From a virus, in the IMG/VR virus record IMGVR_UViG_3300021376_000071, positions 1 to 56,120 of that record: DNA of 56,120 nt. One strand, written 5' to 3'. The translations under genes were made by a program, and so were the position numbers. Shown piece by piece: positions 6,618 through 54,953 of this stretch (position 1 is the stretch's first letter; each line of letters starts with the position of its first letter). The notes below the pieces were generated by a model that worked only from the letters and a program-made list of their open reading frames with translations, did not search any database and was not told the origin of the DNA.

Positions 6618-8155
6618 TAAATAGCCTCAAGTAAGATATCTGGTTCAGCAAATGTAAGGACTTCATTGTTTAAGGCTTGAATTTGAGAAAGGCTTGGAGT
6701 TCCACCGCTTTTGTATAAGAACTGAATTTTTGCACGTGTAATACCAGGGATATTTTGAATAACAAACTCAACATCTTGAGCAGTAATTAACTCTCCAAAT
6801 TCAACATAGTTATAACTAAAGTTGTTTACTATTGCGGACCTTAAATTATTTTCAGCAACTGCTTGTGTATAAACAGAGTCGCGTGTGTATTGAATGTTCA
6901 TAGTTACTGGAACATAGGTAGGCTGTGTATAAGTAACGGTTACCCCAGCAAGAGTTCTATCAGCCAAAAACGACGTAACGCTGTCTCTCATGCTTGTCCA
7001 TTCAGATGTAGGAGTACCAGAAGATAAGCCTGGTGTTGCATCTCCGTCGTTGTCATCACGCTCTGGTGCAATGTAAAGAGTTACTGAGGTGTAGCCACTA
7101 GAAACAGCCTTTGCTTTACCGCAGTTATCTACAGATAAAGCCAGGTTTTCATAATCGTCTAGGGTTATTGCACGTCCTAATGTTCTTAAGAACTTCGGAG
7201 CATTTCTACGTATTGAATCATCAGACTCTGGGTCTGAACCACCAGTTCCCACAGAAGTATTAGCAACGTCAATAACTCCAGCAATTGCCGTTATTTGAGA
7301 TTCTGATAATCCTGGGATATAGGCTAAGGTATCAATAGTGTTTTGAGAAACATTGCCGAGTAGCCCTCCACCTGCAGTATAGACCGCTTTAACTGTTGCA
7401 TGAATAGTTGGGATGGCTCCTGAAACACCGTCTCCAAATAAAACAAATATTTTATTATCTTTATCAAAACGCGTTGTAAAAACAGCGTCGTTAGGACCGA
7501 AGTCAATTAGGTGTTGAACTTTTGTCCATTTTTTAAAGGTGTTTCCGCTTTCTACGTAAACCTCAATACTGTCAGAAACAACTGGGTCATCATCTAAGTT
7601 AAAGGTTTGGTCAGCCGTTCCATCAGAGTCGCCAAGGTCTACTCCGTAGATGCTTCCTGCTTCAACAGTGTTGTAAGCACCCTCTTCACTAAGAATTAAG
7701 ACCTCTCCCCGTGTACTGCCTACTGCTGCTGGAACAGTGGCATTTGCAAGGGTTGAAAATGTAACGGTTTGAACAGAAGTTTCTCCAATTACTTCTCCAG
7801 TAACACGAGTACCAGCAGGAAGGACTATCTGAGTTCCTGAGTTGTTATAGAAAGTAATAAAGCATGTTGCGTTTTTATAACCAGTTGGGGTGTAACCGTA
7901 AGTCTCTGCTAAAGCCAAAATAGTATCGCGTTGAGTTGCGGTTGCAATAAACTGCTCGTTAGCAACACGGTCAATGTAATAACTAGCAATGTCTCCCATG
8001 TAAGCAAAGGCTTCAATTAACGCTAGACCAAAGTCAGATTGGTCATTACCCGACCACTCAGGGATGTTCTTTTTAACGCGAGCAATTAACTCTTCACGAA
8101 TCGCGAAAAAGTCTCGGTTTGTGTAATCAACCGTTACTGGTGTGTCTTCAGCCAT
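6617..8155 (-). CDS. Baseplate wedge protein, baseplate J family
   Basis: 512 aa. The N-terminus (VDYTNRDFFAIREELIARV, ALIEAFAYMGDIASYYIDR) and the centre (GTGGSDPESDDSIRRNAPKF and GRAITLDDYENLAL) are characteristic of baseplate J/T4 gp6-type wedge proteins; the C-terminus has FVIQNIPGITRAKIQFLY. It forms the baseplate ring that opens on contraction. Its stop and the start of the OB-fold gene share a base, and it is preceded by the gp25 gene, the usual order in contractile tails. Confidence 0.93.
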   Translation of the reverse strand: MAEDTPVTVDYTNRDFFAIREELIARVKKNIPEWSGNDQSDFGLALIEAFAYMGDIASYYIDRVANEQFIATATQRDTILALAETYGYTPTGYKNATCFITFYNNSGTQIVLPAGTRVTGEVIGETSVQTVTFSTLANATVPAAVGSTRGEVLILSEEGAYNTVEAGSIYGVDLGDSDGTADQTFNLDDDPVVSDSIEVYVESGNTFKKWTKVQHLIDFGPNDAVFTTRFDKDNKIFVLFGDGVSGAIPTIHATVKAVYTAGGGLLGNVSQNTIDTLAYIPGLSESQITAIAGVIDVANTSVGTGGSDPESDDSIRRNAPKFLRTLGRAITLDDYENLALSVDNCGKAKAVSSGYTSVTLYIAPERDDNDGDATPGLSSGTPTSEWTSMRDSVTSFLADRTLAGVTVTYTQPTYVPVTMNIQYTRDSVYTQAVAENNLRSAIVNNFSYNYVEFGELITAQDVEFVIQNIPGITRAKIQFLYKSGGTPSLSQIQALNNEVLTFAEPDILLEAI

Positions 8156-8556
8156 TATAAGTTCTCCTGTGCTGGTGGGTTTTTTCCACCAATAGCGGTA
8201 AGTGCTACGGCAGTTTTTTGAACTTCCTTATTAGGCAAACTGTAAACAATATCCACCACGATTGTTCCGTTTTCCACGTTTTCTTCAATTATAGACTCAA
8301 TATAAGTAAGATTTGGCAGTAAATTGATAAATGCTTCCTGTATTTCAACATCTATTTGCTGAAATGCTGAATCTGTGCCTTTAAATAAAGCAGCCGAAAT
8401 GGTTGTTCCATATTCTGGGAACATCACTCTTTCACTCTGCAAGGTCCCAATTGCAGACAAAACTCTGTCGGCCCAAATTTTTGACTGTAATTGAGTGGCT
8501 TGAATAGTCCCGTAAGGACTTAAGGACATAGGTAAACTGATTGCACGTTCTGCCAT
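8155..8556 (-). CDS. Baseplate wedge protein, gp25-like
   Basis: 133 aa from the ATG that overlaps the stop of the hub gene as TAATG; a start four codons earlier is possible. The motif pattern (RVLSAIGTLQSERVMFPEYG, then QIDVEIQEAFINLLP and IVVDIVYSLP) fits the gp25/lysozyme-like wedge family that bridges sheath and baseplate. Its position between the hub and baseplate J is the standard arrangement. Confidence 0.9.
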   Translation of the reverse strand: MAERAISLPMSLSPYGTIQATQLQSKIWADRVLSAIGTLQSERVMFPEYGTTISAALFKGTDSAFQQIDVEIQEAFINLLPNLTYIESIIEENVENGTIVVDIVYSLPNKEVQKTAVALTAIGGKNPPAQENL

Positions 8557-21205: not shown

Positions 21206-22024
21206 TTATATTCTTAGCCCTGATGAACCCATTCCTGAATGTATAGCGCAGTTGTAATAAACAGGGCTTGTAAAGTTGTAGGCTATTACGGCAGTTACCT
21301 TTCGGTTAGTAGCACTCGCACTCCAAGCAGCAGAATACGCAGTAAATGTTGTGTAGGTATAAGCGTCTATAGTGTAAGTAACTCCTTGTGCTGAGTTAAG
21401 AGCAGAGGCTGTGTTGTCTTGAGCAGAAGACAGATAGAACGGATGACCGTCAACGGTATCGCTAGATACGTCAAATACATAGGTCATTCCTGGAAGTAAC
21501 TTTAGTTGTGGGGTTTGAACGCCATCAACAAAGTAGTAATTACTTCCAAGGACAGACTGCACAGTAATGATATGAGTGATGACTGCTGTACCAGCAGGTC
21601 CAGCGTTACCTTGAACTCCAGCAGCACCTGTTGGTCCTGTTGGTCCTGTAGGTCCTGCAACGTTTGAATCAGCACCTGTTGGACCAGTTGGTCCAGTTAC
21701 TGTTGATGCTGGTCCAGTAGCACCTGTTGGGCCAACACCGCCTTCTGCACCTGTTGGTCCTGTTGGTCCTCCTACTCCAGTAGCACCTGTTGGTCCTGTA
21801 GGTCCAATAGAGCCAACTGGTCCAGTAGGTCCAGTAGGTCCGTCTGGTCCTGTTGGGCCAGTTGGTCCACCAGAGGGACCTGTTGGTCCTTGTGGTCCAG
21901 TCGGTCCTTCAGGTCCACCAGAAGGTCCTGTTGGTCCTGTAGGACCTGCAGCACCTGCTGGACCTTGAACGCCTTGTTCAATGCTTACCCAAGCGGAACC
22001 ATTCCAATACTTTAACTGTGGCAT
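21206..22024 (-). CDS. Collagen-like fibre protein with C-terminal cupredoxin-like domain
   Basis: 272 aa. Residues 1-20 hold a fibre lead-in ([13 protein letters not shown]), 21-145 are Gly-X-Y repeats dominated by Gly-Pro-Thr, and 146-272 form a beta-sandwich resembling a cupredoxin. His194 (GHPF), Cys259, His262 and Met265 (CAIHSGMG at the C-terminus) line up with the type-1 copper ligand set. Probably a trimeric head/neck fibre with a metal-capable tip. TAATG overlap with the upstream gene. Confidence 0.85.
21600..21965 (-). repeat. Collagen-type codon repeats in the 272-aa fibre gene
   Basis: Nine-base-unit repeats encoding Gly-Pro-Thr and Gly-X-Y, such as GGTCCTGTTGGTCC/GGACCAACAGGA on the two strands. 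Repeats of this sort can recombine and change fibre length. Confidence 0.85.
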
Positions 22025-23343
22025 TATGACAACCTACTCCAATATCGATGCGTCATATTACTAAACGAGTCTCGTGTTGTTGGCAAATCTGACGTAGAAG
22101 AAGCAGAGCCCGCCATTCTTGGAGAAGCAGCAAGAATTGCAGTAGAGGCGGAACCACCAGCCACTGATGCGAGGGTCGGGGGTGTAGAAGCAACTACAAC
22201 CACGGCTACTGCATAACGGCTACCTGCAGTTAGTGTGTAAGAAGTTGGATAACTACCAGTTGAATCTAATGCTCCTGTGTAAATGCTGTTTGAAACAGTA
22301 AATCTTGATGCGTCGTTATTTGTTCTTGCAACTAAAGTAGCGGTTGTTCCATCAAATGTATACAAACCAAAACGCACAAGTGATACACCTGAAGCAACAG
22401 TTGAACCTGAAGAAAACGATATGTTAGAAACTGTTAAATCTTCTGTAGGAGTAAAAAATGAAAAATACGTATTGTTTGAAGCAACTGCTGTAGTTCCATT
22501 CACTAAATCTCTTACTGGAACATCCAATGTTGTTGCAGAGTTATGCAGCGAGTCTCTAAGCCAAGGTTGAGCAACAGAGTTATAAGAAGTTTCATCCGTA
22601 TCAAGCCATAGAACATCTGTTGTAGAAGGAGTACTTGTTTGAGCAACTAGTGCAGTTGGTCCCGTAGGACCAGTTGGTCCAGTTGGTCCTGCATCACCTG
22701 TTGGTCCTGTAGGTCCTCCTGAAGGTCCGATAGGTCCTTGTGGTCCAGTAGGTCCAGTAACTGAGGGACCAAGTGCTCCAGTAGGTCCAGTAGGTCCAGC
22801 AGCACCTGTTGGTCCTGTTGGTCCTCCTGAAGGTCCGATAGGTCCAGTAGGTCCAGTAGGTCCGTTTGGTCCAGCAGAACCTGCAGGACCAGTTGGTCCT
22901 AAAGTTATGGAAGCAATCCACTGAACACCGCTCCAAAAACTAACGGAATTATCTGTTTTAATCCAGATATCGCCAATTTGAGGAAGATTGGGTTCATAAG
23001 CCGAATAAGTTACATACTGTTTACCGTCTACTTCGTAAGCAGCAGTAACTGAATATGAAAGGTCTGCAGTTGTTCCTGTAACTTTTATGGTATCACCAGT
23101 ATTTAATGCAAATCTAAATGTTTCAAATGCTTGACCTTGTGTTATTTCAAGGTCTTTAACTATTACCAAAGTTGTTGGGTCTGTATAAACAGAACCAGTT
23201 GGCACAACATAAACAGTTGTTTTTGCTGTTTGAGTTCCTTTATTAGCAATAATTAAAGAAGCAACGTAACCACGACTTGCGGTTACAAGGTCTGTAAGAG
23301 AATCTCTACCAGGATTGGATACGGCTAGACGTGTTACTGGCAT
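22024..23343 (-). CDS. Collagen-like fibre protein with N-terminal paralogous beta domain
   Basis: 439 aa from the ATG at 23343 (TAATG junction); the track start nine residues earlier has no support. Residues about 1-110 are a beta domain with FETFRFALN, homologous to the 174-aa protein upstream. A short module ending in VQWIAS precedes the Gly-X-Y region (about 145-245, Gly-Pro-Thr rich), and residues about 250-439 form a C-terminal beta-rich adhesin/carbohydrate-binding-like domain. Likely a neck-side fibre. Confidence 0.8.
22655..22893 (-). repeat. Collagen-type codon repeats in the 439-aa fibre gene
   Basis: The same Gly-Pro-Thr codon units as in the other collagen genes, about 26 triplets with short breaks (for example [10 protein letters not shown]). 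Confidence 0.85.
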
Positions 23344-23867
23344 TAGTCTGTTACCGTCACTTTCTTCCAACCATCGTTAGTTTTAACTTCTAACGAATCA
23401 GTATCAGTATTAAATCTTACGTAACCAACTTCAGCAGCAGTTTCTCTAGCAGCAGTTGTGCCTTTATCAAGGTAAATAACGTTGTTAATTCCTCTAATAG
23501 TCTTATTTCTAAAGACTGCTGGCAAATCTGCTGGACTGAAATCGTCTGCTTGTAAAATTCCGTATGCTGAGAAAGAAGTTCCCGCTATTGTAGATTTTAC
23601 AAAAATAGAGTCGTTTGCATTTAATGCAAAACGAAACGTTTCAAAAGACTGGCCTACTCCAACAGTTAGGTTTGATGCAATGTACGCATATTCGTTTGCT
23701 TGTGCTGCTCCAGCAGGAACAACCCAAACGTCTACTTTGCAAACAGGAGTTGCTTGTGCTGAAGTATTAGCAATAACAACTGAAGTTAAATGAGCGTTTA
23801 GTACCGCGGTAAGTTGTTGATTACTATTAGCAGCGGGAGTCGCAACTCCAAGTCGAATAATCGCCAT
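23343..23867 (-). CDS. Fibre-associated beta protein, paralogue of the 439-aa fibre N-terminus
   Basis: 174 aa. Contains [25 protein letters not shown] and [19 protein letters not shown], matching the N-terminal domain of the downstream collagen-like protein ([40 protein letters not shown]). The C-terminus has the module [20 protein letters not shown], a common phage fibre cap. It may be an attachment or adaptor protein for the fibres. SD aggagg before ATG. Confidence 0.75.
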
Positions 23868-32077: not shown

Positions 32078-34051
32078 TTACGCTCCAAGCCACCATGATG
32101 TTGAAATCGCAAGCGTTCCTACTGTGCCTTGAGGACCAGTTGGACCAGCATTTCCTGATGCAACTTCTATCCATGCACCTTGAAAGAATACATAAGTTTT
32201 TGCGTTTTGAGTGTTAAACCAGCCGTCACCTGCATCTGCAGTTGCAGTAGATGGAGCGGTTGGACCTGTAGCAGTGAATTTACCAACAGGACCTGTTGGA
32301 CCAGTAGGACCTAACGGACCAGTAGGACCCGTGACTTGTGACTGTGGGCCAATAGGACCAGTAGGGCCAGTAGGTCCTGTAGGACCAGTCTCGCCTTTCT
32401 TGTCATAAATAGCGATAACACCAAGTTGTGCACCATCAGTTGAACTTTGATAAACAATATTTGCTGGTGCGTTTAGAGGAACAACATAAGTGATTATGTT
32501 TGGTGAAGAAGCACTGTACACACCAACAGCAGCATTGTTGCCTGTTGTTCCAGGAACTGTTGCACCGTTGTTTTCTGATAAACGAAGTGCAAATGGGTCG
32601 TTAACAACTAGACCACTGCAATCAAAGTAATAAGTTTCACCACGAACTAAAGTAAGGGTTGGGTTATCACCCTCAACGTCTGCAACTAAATATGCTGTAT
32701 TTCCTGAATTATTTGTAATTACAAACGTTGTTCCATTACGTGGACCCATAGGACCAGTAGGACCTGTAACTGATGGACCAGTCGAACCTGTTGGACCTGT
32801 AGGACCAACGAACGGACCTCCGCTTACCCAATCAGAGCCATTCCAAATATAAATGTTGCTATCTGCAGAAACTACGTATGCGTCACCAGAAGTATTTCCA
32901 GTTGAAGGAAGATTTCCAGTTGCTGAAACAACGCCTTTAACATTGATAGATGTTCCTTGTGCACCAGTTGGACCAGTCGGACCTTGCGAACCTGTAGGAC
33001 CAGTTACAGTTGAAGCAGGACCAGTAGCACCAGTTGGTCCAAGTGGACCAGTTGGACCAGTTACATCAGAAGCAGGACCAGTAGGTCCTGTTGGACCTTC
33101 AGGACCGATAGGACCAGTTGGTCCTGTTACGTTAGAAGCAGGTCCTGTTGCACCTGTTGGTCCTTGCAAACCTTGTGGACCAGTAACACCTTGAATATTA
33201 CCGACGTTTTGCCAACCACCTGCACCGCCATTTAATGACGGATTCCACACAACTAAATCGCCATTTGTTAAAAGGTAAGCATCACCAATTTGTCCTGTTG
33301 GTCTTGCTGCTACTAGTGTTTCAAAATCTGCGTACTCGCCTTTAATAACTGTTGCTGCACCAGCAGGACCAGTAGCACCTGTAGGTCCAGTTGGTCCTAC
33401 AACGTTTGAATCAGCACCAGTTGAACCTGTTGGACCTGTTGGGCCAACATTGCCTTGTGCACCTGTAGGTCCTGTAGGTCCTTGATTACCTTGTTGACCT
33501 TGAGACCCTGTTGGTCCTGTTGGTCCTTCAATACCTTGAATACCTTGCGGACCAGTTGGGCCAGTTGGTCCTATAGGACCAGTAGGGCCAGTTACATTTG
33601 AAGGAAGTCCTTGAATACCTTCTGGACCTGTTGGACCAGTCGGTCCCAATGGACCTTGTGGGCCAGTTGCACCATCAACACCAATAACACCATCAAAACC
33701 ACGTGGACCAGTAGGACCAGTAGGACCTAAACCACCTTCAGGACCAGTAGGTCCTGCTGCACCTGTTTCACCTAACGGACCACGAGGACCAGTTGCACCA
33801 GTTGGTCCAGTTACACCTTCAAAACCACGAGGACCAGTTGGTCCTGTTGGTCCAGTTACAGCAGGACCTGTAGGACCTGTTGCACCAATTGGACCTGTTG
33901 CACCAGTTGCTGATGCAGAACCTGCAGGACCCGTTGGTCCAGTTGGACCTGAAGGACCAGTAAAGCCACGAGGACCTCGTTGATTAGGAACACCAGGAAG
34001 TAACGATGGGTCAATCTCTGGATACTTAGGACTGTTCGGATTAATTGGCAT
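32078..34051 (-). CDS. Large interrupted collagen-like fibre protein
   Basis: 657 aa. Gly-X-Y tracts at about 28-233, 289-367, 415-440 and 553-592, rich in Gly-Pro-Thr, are split by two small knobs of fibre type ([17 protein letters not shown] near 255 and [20 protein letters not shown] near 395) and by a cupredoxin-like domain (about 442-550) that lacks the copper ligands. The C-terminal piece has [14 protein letters not shown]. Likely a trimeric neck or head fibre. It starts directly at the stop of the neck gene upstream. Confidence 0.85.
32280..34000 (-). repeat. Interrupted collagen-type repeats in the 657-aa fibre gene
   Basis: Four Gly-X-Y blocks separated by three non-collagenous domains. 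Interruptions often read S(N/T/D)V(T)GPTG, a recurring break within the helix. Confidence 0.85.
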
Positions 34052-46284: not shown

Positions 46285-46452
46285 CTAATCCTCTTCTTTA
46301 TTTCTCAATGGGTAAGTAATTCCCCAAAGAACAATTGTTCCCAAAGTTGCCCAGCCAACAACGGTCTTTGCAGACCCATCAAGCACAACCCAGGCAATAA
46401 ACATTCCTAGAAGTGTCCAGGACTGTTCAAGAAAGTCTTTCAGTATTTTCAA
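46285..46452 (-). CDS. Tiny two-helix membrane protein, holin candidate
   Basis: 55 aa, TTG start with GGAG eight bases upstream, overlapping the TGA of the 902-aa gene (CCTTGA). Hydrophobic segments [15 protein letters not shown] and [19 protein letters not shown], ending in a short charged tail (RNKEED). Fits holin-size proteins. The region to 46244 is otherwise non-coding. Missed by length-filtered gene callers. Confidence 0.65.
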
Positions 46453-49157
46453 GGTTTGCGTCTCCTAACGCCCTTCAACTCGCCAGTGGGCCCACCGCCA
46501 CCAGAACTTCCTCCACCTGAAGGTGCAGATAGAGCACTACCACCAGTTGCTAGTCCGACTGCGTTTAGTGCTGCACCTGTAGCAACGACAGTGGCAACAA
46601 CCATTTTGGTTGCCTCTTCACGTTCTTCTGGTGACATATCTGCGCCAATGCTTCCAAGTGCAAGAAGAACTTGACCTGGGTCTTCAAATATTGCGCCTAA
46701 TAGTTCTGCGGGGTTTTGTAACACCTCTAATGCTGCAGCAACTTCTGCAGTAATTATGACAGCATTTCCATTTTCGTCAGTGCGAACATCTACTGGCGTA
46801 GCAGGTGGCAAGTCTTCGTATGTAATTCCTGCTTCTTTAATTGCTTCTGAAGACAACGCTTCGCCTGGTGCTAAAGAAGATACAAGTGCCTCAACCACAG
46901 CAGCCTTTTCTTCAGCCGTTAAATTTCCGTCAGCCAATGCTTCACTTATTACAGTTTCGAGTGTAGTCTCAGAGGATGATTCTTCGGACTGACTTTCTTG
47001 CACTGGGGCTTCTGTCTCTGGTTTTTCTGGTTCTACTGGTTGTTGTTCTTCCTCAGTGGAAGACTCTTCATCGGACGTTCCGTCGTCTTCTGTTGGGGTT
47101 GTCTCTGACGATTCCTCTTCTGTGGGTGTCGATGGTTCTTCTGTTTCAGGCTCAGTAGGTTCTGATGGTTGTTCTTCCTCTGTTTGACCTGAATCAGAAG
47201 GCTCTTCTTCATTATCAGAAGGTGACTCCTCAGGTTGCTCAGGCTGCTCAGGCTCTGGCTCTGTCTCAGGGTCGACAGAAGGTGGCTCTTCAGGATTTAC
47301 TTCAGGTTCAGGCTCAGGAGTAGGTTCTGGTGAAGAAGGTTCTGGCGTTGGCTCTGGTTGTGGTGTTGGCTCTGGTTGCGGCTGTGGTTGTGGTTCGGGA
47401 GTTGGCTCAGGCGTTGGAGTCGTTGGAGTTTGAGGAGGAATAGGTGTCGGAGTTGGTTCTGGGTTTGGTGTTGGGTTTGGTGTTGGGGTTGGCTCTGGCT
47501 GTGGTTGTGGGGTTGGTTGTGGGGTTGGCTCTGGTGAGGGCGTGGGAGCAGGATTGGGCGGAACGACTTGGGATTGCTGAACAGAAGCAATTACGGCAAT
47601 GGCTGAAGAAACTGTGGAAGTAGCCTCATCCGCTTTTTGAACTGCTGTGTTTGCTGCTGCATCTGCAGTTGCTAATGCGGTTGTTGCTGCTGCATCTGCT
47701 TGTGTTTTTTCTGTTTGAGCATTTGTTAAATTTGTTTGAGCAGTAGTTAACGTAGATTGGAGGGTATTTAGTGTTTGAGTTTCTGTTGTTAATGTGGTCT
47801 GAGATGTTGCAAGTGCTGTCTCTGCTGCTGTTTTCTCTCCCTCTTTAACTGCTAACACTGCGGTTTCTGTAGTAACTGTTGCTTCTGCTGCTTGTAATGT
47901 GGCTACTTGTTGTGGCGTAGCAGAACTTTGAGAAAACTCAGACCCTGGAATTATTTCCCACCCACTTCCTGTATAACGCATTAAAGCAACGTGAGCACCA
48001 CCGCCATTTTCGTAATACCAAAAAACAAACTCTTTTTTAGTGCCAGCAGTAGTTGCTACATCTGCGGTGGAGCCTCCTCCACCCTTGTCAACCCAATCGT
48101 TAATAACTAACTGACCATCTAGATATAAGCGAACACCATCATCTGCGGGGGCATGTAAGTATTGAGTACCTGTAGTCTGCGGAGTCCATTGACCAGAGTA
48201 CTTAACAATTACATCCTCTGACCTATTAGAACCAGCAACGTTACCGAGTCCCCATTGTTCATTTATTCCATTGGTATCGGTTGTAGTGTGAATAGGAGAT
48301 GCTCCTGCAGGGAGAACTGGAGAAGCGTTTTGCCCTAATACGTTGTACACCTCAACCTTTAGACCTGGTTGAGTAGCAGCGTCTACCACGGCTTGTGCTG
48401 CTGCTTCTGTAACTACTGCTTGAGTTACTACGGCTTGTTGAGTTGAAACAGCAACTGTTGCTACATTTACATCTTCTTGACGAGCAGCGACTACTGCTGT
48501 TGCTGATGCGACTACTGGAACCTGTGTGTCTACCGCACTTTGAGCAACAGCCACTACTTGAGTTTTGTCTGCAACAACTGCTGTAGCAGTTTCTGCAATT
48601 GCTACCGCAACAGACGCTGAGTCAGATGCAGCCACTGCTGCAACAATGGCAGTCTGTGCTTCTTCAATTCTTGCTTGAGCAGTTGCTACCGCTGCTACAA
48701 CCGTTGTATCGGAAGATACTGGAGTTGGAAGATTAGTTGTGGCAGTATTTAGGTCTTGTTGGGCTTGTGTAGTTGTTACATTTGCAGACTCAATTTTATT
48801 TTCAACGGAGGTGACTGATGGACTTTCAGACGTGGCAGGAGTGGGCGTGGACTGCGTTGTGCTTGGGGACGGGGATTGTTCTGGGGACGGTGTGGACACG
48901 GGAGCCGTTGAAGTCGAAGGTGAAGGCTCTGCAGTCACTGTTGGCTCAGGAGCGGGTGAAGAACTTGGACTTGGTTCAGGAGTTGAAGTTTGCGAAGGCG
49001 AAGGTGTTGGCTCAGGACTCTGACTTGGAGCGGATGAGGTCGAAGTGGTTGTGGAGGGAGTAACTTCCTCTGCATACGTCGTCTCTGTTCGCATAATCGT
49101 GTAAACGAAAGCAAGTAAGAGAACAGCAAAAAATTGTTTAATTGCTTTCGGTAGCAA
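46449..49157 (-). CDS. Large secreted PA14-domain surface/virion protein
   Basis: 902 aa, TTG start (AGGTG 8 bases upstream) with signal peptide-like [14 protein letters not shown]. Layout: Ser/Pro/Thr-rich 30-120; Val/Ala/Thr coiled coil 120-255; PA14 carbohydrate-binding domain about 265-405 ([30 protein letters not shown]); coiled coil 410-530; (PEPTP)-type stalk about 540-620; Glu/Ser/Pro-rich 620-740; C-terminal helical domain; hydrophobic [20 protein letters not shown] and RRRKP end, as a membrane anchor. Probably exported to the host surface or carried as an adhesin. Confidence 0.75.
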
Positions 49158-50543: not shown

Positions 50544-51152
50544 TTACTTAGTAACTGTGTAACCGTGTGAGCGTAATAGATTTATGGCTGCTTCAATGTC
50601 AGCAGATGGGCCTGTTGCTGCTGGTGCTTCTGCTGCTGCTTTACCTGCACCCTTAAACTTTGGTCTACCAAAACCAACAATAGAGATTTGAACTCCTGCT
50701 TTGTTCTTTTTGTAAGCACGAAGTTTCTTACAAGCCTCTCCACCATTACGTTGAGAGCCTCTCTTTCCATCTCCAGTAGTGTTGCCTTCAATACACCAAA
50801 CAGTTCCGTCTTCATTGTCTTTGATAACAATGCCTACGTGAGAAATCCTATCGACACCGTCTGCGGGAAAATCAAAATAGGCAATATCTCCTGGTTCTGG
50901 GTCTGCAAGGTCGCCATCAATCCAAGCACCTTTTTTCTTAAAGGCTGCTGCACCACCAGGTGTGTAAACAGTGTTAGGTACTTTTACTCCTGCTTCATTT
51001 GCACACCACATAACAAAGGAGCCACACCAAGGCTGGAAGTTAGCCTTGGTGAAAGCACCATACTTTGTTTCGTTGTCTTTTGGACCTTCAATATAACCAA
51101 CTTCGGCTTTAGCAACCTCAATAAGACGTGCTGCTGTTCCTTGCTCTGCCAT
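50544..51152 (-). CDS. Endolysin, CHAP amidase/endopeptidase
   Basis: 202 aa. CHAP pattern: GYIEGPKDNETKYGAFTKAN, catalytic Cys in QPWCGSFVMWC, catalytic His in DRISHVGIVIKD, and acidic partner in VWCIEGNTTGDG. A Gly/Ala-rich linker is followed by IEAAINLLRSHGYTVTK, a short C-terminal helix possibly for wall binding. No signal peptide, so a holin is needed. It is followed by HNH and DUF7455-like genes and preceded by small membrane genes. Confidence 0.92.
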   Translation of the reverse strand: MAEQGTAARLIEVAKAEVGYIEGPKDNETKYGAFTKANFQPWCGSFVMWCANEAGVKVPNTVYTPGGAAAFKKKGAWIDGDLADPEPGDIAYFDFPADGVDRISHVGIVIKDNEDGTVWCIEGNTTGDGKRGSQRNGGEACKKLRAYKKNKAGVQISIVGFGRPKFKGAGKAAAEAPAATGPSADIEAAINLLRSHGYTVTK

Positions 51153-51316
51153 TACTTTTTCTCCTTCTTACAAAAACACTCAACCTTGTTACTTAACTTA
51201 TTGTGCTGCCAAGCCATGTATAAATTCCATCCAAACATAACAACCATTAAAAACCACATAATCTCCATTTCAGTAATTGAAGACCCTGCTGTTATTACAG
51301 GATGGTCATGGTTCAC
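51152..51316 (-). CDS. Tiny single-helix membrane protein
   Basis: 54 aa, GTG start overlapping the upstream stop as GTGA and TAATG with the endolysin. N-out type segment, then a hydrophobic helix (MWFLMVVMFGWNLYMAW) and a Cys-x-Cys basic tail (KVECFCKKEKK). Lysis accessory (holin, spanin-like or antiholin) by position. Missed by length-filtered callers. Confidence 0.7.
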   Translation of the reverse strand: MNHDHPVITAGSSITEMEIMWFLMVVMFGWNLYMAWQHNKLSNKVECFCKKEKK

Positions 51317-51723
51317 TCTTTATCCCAATCTAGGTCTACTGGTTGTTCTGCTGGCATAGCACCTTCTGGCTTTGCCTCAAGACGTGCACGGGTTGCATCA
51401 ATCTCTGCTTCAAGTTTCTTATCTGCCAATGTGTTTTTGGCATCCATCTCTTTGTTGGCTAGTTGTGCTGACATGATGTCTTTAGCACCAGACTGACCAA
51501 TCAAGAGACCTGCAAGAGTTCCCGTAATAAATGTTGCAACGCTGCCTAATACATTGAAGAACATCTTGTCATTCTCTGACTGTGCTCCGATTGGCTGCGA
51601 TACGAAAAGAAGTCCGTAAAGAATTCCCAATGCTGTGAATAGGAGAATCGCTCCTAATGTGATGCCCAAGATAAACTTTAAACGAGCATCTAAGTCTGCT
51701 GGTGACAATCTGTCTTTAGCCAT
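51313..51723 (-). CDS. Two-helix membrane protein with coiled-coil tail, holin candidate
   Basis: 136 aa. Two membrane helices (about 17-40, ILGITLGAILLFTALGILYG, and about 57-76, VLGSVATFITGTLAGLLIG), then a Lys/Glu-rich coiled coil (AKDIMSAQLANKEMDAKNTL) and an acidic end. Typical of actinophage holin-like proteins next to lysins. Overlaps neighbours by 4-8 bases. Confidence 0.65.
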   Translation of the reverse strand: MAKDRLSPADLDARLKFILGITLGAILLFTALGILYGLLFVSQPIGAQSENDKMFFNVLGSVATFITGTLAGLLIGQSGAKDIMSAQLANKEMDAKNTLADKKLEAEIDATRARLEAKPEGAMPAEQPVDLDWDKE

Positions 51724-51961
51724 TTGGTTGACCGCTTTCTGTGGTTACTGTGTTTTCATCTGTTGTTAGGTTCTTCAGTATATCTGAAGTACATGTAAGG
51801 CTTGCTTCACAAATAGGAGGATTGCACTCTGCGTTTTTCCAATTTGCTGGGTCTTGGCATGGATAACGATAACGCTCTAGGTTTTCGCATCCTGTAAGTG
51901 AAAACAAGAGGACACTAGCCATGCCAGCAACTAATAACTTCTTAACGTTTTTCACTTTCAA
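51716..51961 (-). CDS. Cys-rich lipoprotein
   Basis: 81 aa, TTG start (GGAG six bases upstream; a GTG two codons later is possible). Signal peptide ending VLLFSLTGC (lipobox), then YRYPCQDPANWKNAEC, NPPICEASLTCTSDI. The motif YPCQDP..W...C..P.C is recurrent in phage lipoproteins of aquatic phages. Probably a lysis or exclusion accessory. Overlaps the 53-aa gene by 20 bases. Confidence 0.75.
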   Translation of the reverse strand: MKVKNVKKLLVAGMASVLLFSLTGCENLERYRYPCQDPANWKNAECNPPICEASLTCTSDILKNLTTDENTVTTESGQPNG

Positions 51962-52103
51962 ATGACTCCTTAATTGCTAATCGTTGTGCTGTACTTTTAT
52001 CTCTCATTCGATTTGTGCGACGGTCATTAAATACTGCGATTTTTTGATTCAGTTTGTAATTGCCTGGAGCACCCTTGCCTAAGGACTTGTCTTTCTTAGG
52101 CAC
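51942..52103 (-). CDS. Tiny basic protein
   Basis: 53 aa, GTG start overlapping the upstream gene by 8 bases with no strong SD. GKGAPGNYKLNQKIAVFNDR, then TNRMRDKSTAQRLAIKES. Basic and helical. Fills an otherwise empty gap and is in an unbroken frame with coupling to both neighbours. Function unknown. Confidence 0.6.
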   Translation of the reverse strand: MPKKDKSLGKGAPGNYKLNQKIAVFNDRRTNRMRDKSTAQRLAIKESFESEKR

Positions 52104-52446
52104 TTGGCTTTGGTCCAGGTGCTTTGGTTACTGGACGACCAGATGCTTGTGCTCCTCTTCGTGTGTAGTTTTGATGCTTGGATGTGGTGGAAGAATATTT
52201 AACGTCTGGAATTACCCATCCGTGTTCTGCACTGTGTACTCCAATTGGTGTGCCGTAAGAATGAACAACGTAATCAATGTCTTTTAAAGGTTGAATAGTT
52301 GCACGAGCAGCCTCTGGCATACGACCAAAGATTAAATGGTCGCCAGGGCCTGTGTGTCCACGTGCATGAATCGCACCGTGGCTAACAAAAGCCTCACGTC
52401 GTGAGATTTTTTCAATTGCTTCTCTGGAGTTAACTCTTTTAGGCAT
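52096..52446 (-). CDS. Hypothetical phage protein with His-rich core
   Basis: 116 aa from the ATG at 52446. IEKISRREAFVSHGAIHARG, then DHLIFGRMPEAARATIQPLK, DIDYVVHSYGTPIGVHSAEH, and a basic C-terminus. It resembles small conserved phage proteins of unknown function. No nuclease or protease motif is clear, despite several His. Confidence 0.7.
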   Translation of the reverse strand: MPKRVNSREAIEKISRREAFVSHGAIHARGHTGPGDHLIFGRMPEAARATIQPLKDIDYVVHSYGTPIGVHSAEHGWVIPDVKYSSTTSKHQNYTRRGAQASGRPVTKAPGPKPSA

Positions 52447-52464
52447 GGTCAAATAGTAAAGTAC

Positions 52465-53010
52465 TTATTCGTACTTGTACTGCTCTTTCTTAGTAAAAGG
52501 TGCAGAAGTCCAAGCATCTTGAGACTCGGCTATCTTCATAGCCTTCAGAGGGGCTGCACCAGCCAAAATAGCCCCTACAGCATACTTTGCACCGTTTCCT
52601 ACTCCATAAATGCCATCGGCTCTTATACCGACCGACAGGTCGTCTTCAATGGCAAATAGAGTTCCACCAACAGCAACTAAAAACTGAAAACGGTATTCGC
52701 CATCAATGCCCTCTTCTTTAAAGTCAAATCCGTTATTAATTAAACATTGGCGAAGAGAAGGCACTACTTTTGCAATCATGAAGTGATAGAGGTCTTTGAT
52801 GTCTTTTTCGGTAGGTGCTGGTGGATTCCAGATGTGTTGTGCTACATCGCAAGGGAAGGCTTCTCCTGCTCCAGCAATTAAAAAATCCCCACGTCTTGAA
52901 ATTTTAGACATGTGGGGATGATGGAACTTACGTCCTTGACCATCTGTTGTTTGATTATCGCAATAGATAACGCATTTATCTTTCTGCTGGATTCCAATAA
53001 TCGTCGTCAC
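52465..53010 (-). CDS. Proteasome beta-subunit/HslV-like N-terminal threonine peptidase
   Basis: 181 aa, GTG start with GAGGA seven bases upstream. The N-terminus MTTIIGIQQKDKCVIYCDNQ matches HslV (MTTI-) and proteasome beta subunits: Thr2 would be exposed by Met removal, Asp18 (D17 after Met loss) and Lys36 fit the catalytic Asp17 and Lys33, and GAGEAF fits the glycine loop. Later FQFLVAVGGTLFAIEDD, YGVGNGAKYAVGAILAG, AMKIAESQDAW follow the Ntn fold. Predicted Ntn peptidase of phage origin; no partner ATPase in the window. Confidence 0.85.
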   Translation of the reverse strand: MTTIIGIQQKDKCVIYCDNQTTDGQGRKFHHPHMSKISRRGDFLIAGAGEAFPCDVAQHIWNPPAPTEKDIKDLYHFMIAKVVPSLRQCLINNGFDFKEEGIDGEYRFQFLVAVGGTLFAIEDDLSVGIRADGIYGVGNGAKYAVGAILAGAAPLKAMKIAESQDAWTSAPFTKKEQYKYE

Positions 53011-53022
53011 AGTAGGTCCTCA

Positions 53023-53065
53023 AAGTCGGGGGGGATGAGTAATTCTACTTCTCACCCCCCGACTT
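53023..53065. terminator. Terminator-like hairpin
   Basis: AAGTCGGGGGG pairs with CCCCCCGACTT (11 bp) around a 20-base loop, between the 93-aa gene and the peptidase gene. Minus-strand tail GACTTTGAGG is only weakly T-rich, so it may attenuate rather than stop. Confidence 0.6.
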
Positions 53066-53074
53066 AGAAAGTGT

Positions 53075-54364: not shown

Positions 54365-54511
54365 CTAGGAATTCCAGAGTTCGTCCTCAATACGAAGAAT
54401 CTCTTCTAACTTTTCTTCTGCGACATGTGATGATTTTTGGTTGGGGTAATACTCGTAGTCATCAAACGTTTTGAGTTGTAACGGGTATTCAAACTGTTTC
54501 TTCTTCAACAT
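54365..54511 (-). CDS. Tiny charged protein (48 aa) or first half of a split gene
   Basis: M-LKKKQFEYPLQLKTFDDYEY, then SSHVAEEKLEEILRIEDELW, then NS and TAG. Overlaps the SpeD gene 3' end by 23 bases. Charged and helical. The frame is open beyond the TAG into the Cys-rich 36-aa ORF, so the two may be one gene. Function unknown. Confidence 0.5.
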   Translation of the reverse strand: MLKKKQFEYPLQLKTFDDYEYYPNQKSSHVAEEKLEEILRIEDELWNS

Positions 54512-54953
54512 TTTTAAAACCGTTCTCTCTATCTAGGTTGAGGTAATCCAACTCTACAACTTGGAAGGTTTCGTTGAAAAGAGCCAACACTTGGTCCACA
54601 TTGAGAGAACCGCAGGTGTACAGGTCGAACTGGACTAATGCTGGGTCCTTCTCATCCCAGATGTGGAAAGCGATGTGGCTGGTCTCAATCATCACAATTG
54701 CAGTTAGACCACGGTTACCTGGCTTATCTACATAACTAGCAAATGGCCCCTTGATAATCTTCATGTCGATGTTCTCAACTAAACGTATCAAGAAGCCGAC
54801 GGCCTCTTCCTCGCTCCGCATCGGGGAGGTTACTTTTGCGTTAATCAACAAGTGTTTATGGAAAAGGGGCTTTACCTCGTCTCGCCCGCAAGTACAGTCA
54901 GCACAACCACTGGACTGCTCGTTTGCTAAAGGTAGTTCATTTATACTGGTCAT
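54489..54953 (-). CDS. speD: S-adenosylmethionine decarboxylase (SpeD)
   Basis: 154 aa. After an N-terminal CADCTCGRD, HLLINAKVTSP, then VMIETSHIAFHIWDE and FDLYTCGSLN match AdoMetDC: Ser92 would become the pyruvoyl group, with His97 and Cys114 in their usual spacing. The residue before the Ser is Thr where Glu is common (ESH), so self-cleavage should be checked. Makes decarboxylated SAM for polyamine synthesis, an auxiliary gene also seen in cyanophages. The N-terminal Cys-rich stretch is extra. TAGCCT lies eight bases before the ATG, possibly a leaderless -10. Confidence 0.88.
   Translation of the reverse strand: MTSINELPLANEQSSGCADCTCGRDEVKPLFHKHLLINAKVTSPMRSEEEAVGFLIRLVENIDMKIIKGPFASYVDKPGNRGLTAIVMIETSHIAFHIWDEKDPALVQFDLYTCGSLNVDQVLALFNETFQVVELDYLNLDRENGFKNVEEETV

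Follow-up and report, generated by a model that had tools for sequence, protein, structure and literature searches.

The window, a stretch of viral DNA of 56,120 nucleotides, carries near one end an open reading frame that a first-pass annotation had described as a phage-encoded, HslV/proteasome-like N-terminal threonine peptidase. The locus raises the question of whether the product is a genuine member of the proteasome family and, if so, to which branch it belongs and what a phage might use it for. To our knowledge, none of the phage proteasome homologues has a known function. The gene has precedents, as phage group I proteasome homologues, designated PPH (proteasome homologue of phages and their hosts), AAH and CPH, were reported in 2021 (PMC8665760). 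That survey (Fuchs et al., PMC8665760) found no actinophage with AAH and no gene contexts that indicated a function. A Salmonella jumbo phage with HslV and without HslU was noted in 2020 (PMC7823757).

The gene and its translation signals

The gene for the proteasome-type N-terminal threonine hydrolase, identified from the open reading frame, PHROG 1040 and AlphaFold/Foldseek, occupies 52465..53010 on the minus strand and encodes 181 residues from a GTG start. These coordinates agree with the first-pass annotation, which had left the strand unstated; the plus-strand reading of the same interval is riddled with stop codons. The amino terminus MTTIIGIQQ, Asp18, Lys36 and the Gly loop (IAGAGEA) were all found in the translation as the annotation had described them. 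Its statement that there is no propeptide was also borne out, because there is no in-frame start further upstream from which an extension could be read.

A Shine-Dalgarno sequence, GAGG (53018..53021, minus strand), lies 7 nt before the GTG codon, and a strong hairpin (53021..53070, minus strand) is located just 5' of the ribosome-binding site. Folding of the 86 nt surrounding the hairpin gave a free energy of -35.6 kcal/mol (z=-4.3). A comparable hairpin occurred in the same place in most relatives with at least 57% identity, and four of the ten pairs in the consensus were changed on both sides. The nearest relatives from another clade (L069-L072) had a terminator-like hairpin at this position, and further intergenic hairpins were found elsewhere in the window. 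The upstream hairpin could be the terminator of the upstream gene or an element of translational control. Its outer stem is predicted, in some of the relatives, to base-pair with the Shine-Dalgarno region.

Fold and active site

The protein matched PHROG 1040, 'peptidase HslV family', over nearly its whole length (E=1.5e-22), while the Pfam Proteasome score was below threshold (13.4 vs 22.4 bits) and a PDB search with the single sequence gave weak matches. The matches to excinuclease UvrA, being weak and short, were dismissed as chance. When a profile of 18 relatives was searched against the PDB, BPH was matched at 2.5e-7 and HslV at 3e-6 to 5e-4. The AlphaFold model, built with 18 homologues, had a pLDDT of 88.5 and a pTM of 0.85, and the top Foldseek matches in the PDB were BPH (5ovs, E=5e-11; 5ovu, TM 0.72), followed by HslV and 20S beta subunits. 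The structure prediction against HslV and beta subunits that had been proposed at the outset thus gave a confident proteasome-type fold, with BPH ranked first. The top viral structure matches were phage proteins, one of them already named HslV.

In the AlphaFold model, helices were predicted at residues 51-59, 68-71/74-92, 141-149 and 154-164, with the last strand at 173-178. The architecture is that of group I (AlphaFold, Foldseek), a beta-sheet core with flanking helix pairs and no S12/H5, and the equivalents of the group I residues, the N-terminal Thr, Asp17, Lys33 and Gly47, were present in all 97 aligned family members and in the alignment with E. coli HslV.

The putative nucleophile, Thr2 (codon 53005..53007), which would become Thr1 after removal of the methionine, was invariant in the 97 sequences, the most distant of which is 41% identical to the window protein. 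The same was true of Asp18 (52957..52959), which corresponds to proteasome Asp17 and aligned with Asp17 of E. coli HslV, and of Lys36 (52903..52905), which corresponds to proteasome Lys33 and aligned with the lysine of E. coli HslV. Within the Gly47-Ala48-Gly49 loop of the oxyanion-hole region (52864..52872), both glycines were invariant in 97/97; all of these codons are on the minus strand. Every aligned member began with M-T-T, one of them with ATT as the first codon of the matched frame. The lysine that the first-pass annotation had taken to be spaced as in the proteasome is present, but two residues inserted with respect to E. coli HslV shift it from position 33 to position 35 of the Met-free chain. 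Among the pairs with a computable dS, dN was 0.02-0.15 and dS 0.33-2.25, with dN/dS of about 0.03-0.11. The enzyme gene is real and under strong constraint.

Position among the proteasome homologues

The protein belongs to the group I proteasome homologues, appears to fall nearest to the AAH/BPH part of the family and is a remote relative of bacterial HslV. The original designation as an HslV/proteasome-like peptidase holds for the fold and the N-terminal threonine and fails for HslV itself, since the scores against NCBIfam TIGR03692 and NF003964 were 14.3 vs 157.75 and 15.1 vs 137 bits, far below the cut-offs. HslV shares the fold, the TT amino terminus, the Asp, the Lys and the Gly loop, but its basic pore residues are not retained in the phage family and HslU was not found in the viral records. 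PPH is likewise a phage-borne group I homologue, but it has about 140 residues and lacks helix H2, and the window protein was judged not to be PPH because, at 181 residues, it is too long and has a long second helix (74-92) in the AlphaFold model.

BPH (betaproteobacterial proteasome homologue; PDB 5ovs/5ovt/5ovu) is the closest solved relative. E. coli HslV is more distant than the AAH-like plasmid proteins. Like the phage protein, BPH has neither a propeptide nor a known unfoldase, and the pore-facing loop is acidic in both, although structural alignment gave only 19% identity and the acidic loop is shorter in the phage family. The loop is acidic in most members, with a median of 5 D/E and a median net charge of -2 over the roughly 14 residues of the stretch compared; the net charge was higher than -2 in 40% of members.

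By sequence comparison, the protein appears closest to AAH-like proteins encoded on rhizobial and Streptomyces plasmids, whose AAH status is itself deduced from a taxonomic spread that matches that of AAH in PMC8665760. The plasmid proteins are also about 180 residues long, have the M-T start, D18 and the Lys, and gave a full-length hhalign match (Prob 99.7, E=1.5e-25). They differ in carrying GFTSS at the position of the GAGE/GSGD loop of the phage family and CGCG at that of GVGNG, and they are only about 30% identical to the window protein. In the tree, the family was sister to the AAH-like plasmid proteins together with other phages (support 89/80); the branches were long, and only some parts of the tree were well supported. 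In one of the rhizobial plasmids, that of Sinorhizobium fredii GR64 (L105), the AAH-like gene lies between nifQ and nifU/nifS, while in three other rhizobial plasmids that were inspected it is located elsewhere.

No match was obtained when the region was compared with GenBank phages by megablast. The PHROG 1040 proteins of phages DSL-LC01, Pumpernickel, Hum25 and D'Alembert belong to the same profile family and have the same active-site residues, but they are 28-31% identical to the window protein and have different neighbourhoods.

The proteasome-like family also includes a monomeric ligase, connectase (PMC8665760), and BPH, a 14-mer that binds epoxomicin and has no known unfoldase, was inactive on standard substrates (PMC5777263). 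Both observations are compatible with a highly specific Ntn enzyme, a site-specific protease or connectase-like ligase, rather than a degradative ring. This reading is improbable, as the AlphaFold model has compact group I helices without a connectase-like insertion and the family groups with ring-forming relatives.

Distribution and host

Relatives numbered 267 in one profile scan of IMG/VR and 155 in another, and the two sets overlap. The scan of GTDB genomes returned a single match (L026, CAINGU010000031.1), on a contig binned as 'cyanobacterium'. A WhiB gene lies about 1 kb upstream on this contig and the gene order is that of the phages; for these two reasons it was read as a misbinned actinophage contig and rejected as a host copy. 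The protease family is viral.

Relatives annotated 'protease' are carried by GenBank actinophages (Arthrobacter, Microbacterium and Actinomycetia phages), which, with the IMG/VR records, supply actinophages with an AAH-like protein. WhiB was found in 18 of the 27 viral records with the protease gene, one of which encodes a protein 84% identical to that of the window, and among 14 control genomes it was found in Corynebacterium only. The window itself contains no WhiB gene. The actinobacterial host assumed in the first-pass annotation is therefore supported through the relatives rather than through the window. Since WhiB has been taken as an actinophage marker in papers on freshwater phages (PMC10202952, PMC6802176), the host of the window phage is probably a freshwater actinobacterium.

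Gene neighbourhood

The order of genes in the window, all on the minus strand, is S-adenosylmethionine decarboxylase, glycosyltransferase, small protein, protease, small protein, Rz-like lipoprotein, membrane protein and CHAP endolysin. The decarboxylase is a SpeD-like polyamine gene (54489-54953), and the window, a fragment, ends 3.1 kb upstream of the protease gene, so that the gene for a partner may be located beyond its end. The small protein that follows the protease (52096..52452, minus strand) has 118 residues, matched phrog_32689 (E=3e-9) and had no Pfam match. The lysis cassette (50544..51961, minus strand) consists of the Rz-like lipoprotein, the small membrane protein, possibly a holin, and the CHAP endolysin (E=3e-11); the PHROG matches were strong for the endolysin (E=1e-24) and weak for the Rz-like protein (E=0.005). 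A 902-residue PA14-domain protein with long Pro/Ser/Thr/Glu-rich stretches is encoded further along the same strand (46449-49157), and related long proteins were found in 56 loci.

The location among lysis genes given in the first-pass annotation is true of the window phage and of some clades only. A CHAP endolysin gene was nearby in 50 loci. It lies 3' of the protease gene in the clade of the window and about 80 nt 5' of it in the next clade. About 13 of 21 loci in a third clade have a histone-deacetylase-family gene that ends some 18 nt 5' of the protease gene. In 13 of the 15 loci of a clade with about 44% identity, the protease start is overlapped by the thioredoxin stop codon; WhiB lies some 1 kb upstream in this clade, and a gene for Cpn10 (GroES-like) is no more than about 2.4 kb away. 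In the more distant phages, the protease gene is followed by WhiB (DSL-LC01), is preceded by ThyX and lies near tRNAs (Pumpernickel), or is located in the right arm, well away from the genes for scaffold and capsid (Hum25). Because the neighbourhood changes in this way between relatives, the gene is seen to behave as an accessory gene whose genomic location shifts. The histone deacetylase family gene itself (PF00850, E=1e-53; 7077-7982 in L075) was present in 20 other loci.

These arrangements bear on the idea that the enzyme has an accessory part in lysis and processes holin, spanin or endolysin. This role is favoured by the position beside the lysis genes of the window and by the nearby CHAP gene in 50 loci, but the CHAP gene flips from downstream in one clade to directly upstream in another, and elsewhere the immediate neighbour is thioredoxin or the histone-deacetylase-family gene or, in Pumpernickel, ThyX and tRNAs. 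A lysis function is accordingly rated as having only a slight chance of being correct.

Relation to head maturation

The first-pass annotation had argued that the enzyme is not simply the head-maturation protease, and the relatives bear this out. An S78-type prohead protease profile was matched in three IMG/VR records (G007, G009 and G011) and in DSL-LC01, all of which have the protease gene, and in D'Alembert a head maturation protease is annotated alongside it. In these five phages, the co-occurrence indicates that the enzyme is not the head protease. The exclusion is weaker for the clade of the window, because neither an S78- nor a ClpP-type protease was found there.

The alternative that the enzyme matures the prohead, scaffold or capsid, in this clade draws further on the failure to recognise a protease among the small proteins tested around the portal and capsid genes and on the location of the protease gene and the late genes on the same strand. 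Against it, some 14 kb separate the protease gene of the window from the portal gene, the relatives carry the gene alongside an S78-type or annotated head protease, and Hum25 has it in the right arm away from scaffold and capsid and likewise has no annotated head protease. Given the Hum25 layout, the window is more simply read as having an SPP1-like scaffold that needs no protease, and a prohead function is considered very unlikely.

Search for a partner ATPase

The first-pass annotation had suggested a search for a partner ATPase elsewhere in the genome. No HslU/ClpX-type AAA_2 domain was found in any of the 27 viral records, some of which are possibly fragments, and the only matches were in a 5.4-Mb cellular MAG (G012). 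Good AAA_5 matches were obtained in eight IMG/VR records, DSL-LC01 and Pumpernickel. In the two loci that were read, the AAA_5 gene is adjacent to a VWA gene in a CobST/MoxR-like pair (L109, 12455-15886; L112, 4918-8389). No AAA+ partner is constant among the viral records, and the host may still supply an HslU. The ATPase near close relatives was considered as the partner and rejected, as it is an AAA_5 protein with a VWA neighbour in a divergent module that is missing from other clades.

Bacterial proteasomal ATPases dock on the alpha-subunit ring. The earlier suggestion that the phage enzyme competes for host ATPases found no support, because a partner is not consistently encoded and an alpha subunit is absent.

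A less specific version, in which the protease works with an AAA+ partner, either the phage MoxR/CobST-like AAA_5/VWA pair where it is present or a host unfoldase, gains from the AAA_5 matches and from the adjacent VWA gene in both loci. It is unlikely, since other clades include several long records that lack the pair (G007, G009, G011, G021-G025), although partial records weaken the argument on both sides, and in the loci read it is about 6-8 kb away from the protease gene.

Possible role in infection

Host takeover or protein quality control fits best with the neighbours. Taken together, it is fairly probable that the product is an accessory threonine hydrolase, likely a self-compartmentalising ring without a dedicated phage unfoldase, that acts in one of these two processes. 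Host methionine aminopeptidase would remove Met1 and expose Thr1. The fold and the invariance of the residues suggest that Thr1 would serve as the nucleophile with Asp17 and Lys35, assisted by the Gly loop. Homology to BPH and HslV makes ring formation plausible, and the subunits would probably form a closed double ring that encloses the active sites. Because the phages have no HslU and no constant AAA+ ATPase, entry would have to occur without a dedicated unfoldase; the substrates would probably be unfolded or delivered by chaperones, or a host unfoldase might be borrowed. In infection, its most likely role would be to remove or process proteins of the host or misfolded ones of the phage. The active site by itself need not imply general proteolysis, because BPH showed no activity on standard substrates (PMC5777263).

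A more specific proposal, that an actinophage proteasome-type ring without a dedicated unfoldase forms a module with thioredoxin, a GroES-like co-chaperonin and WhiB and degrades chosen host proteins, is tentative and rather unlikely. The thioredoxin/Cpn10 context, which speaks for a role in protein quality control, belongs to a clade whose identity to the window protein is just about 44%.

Hundreds of environmental phage sequences, probably from phages of actinobacteria, are available for the family, and its clades have informative neighbours. The cultured actinophages Hum25 and Pitbull, of Arthrobacter, and Pumpernickel, of Microbacterium, carry relatives that are open to deletion.

Elsewhere in the window, collagen-like proteins with Gly-Pro-Thr repeats are encoded at 21206-23370 and 32078-34051 on the minus strand. 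A relative phage (L109) encodes a member of the flavin-dependent tryptophan halogenase family (6778-8385, minus strand; PF04820, E=7e-102) beside DUF6065-like genes.
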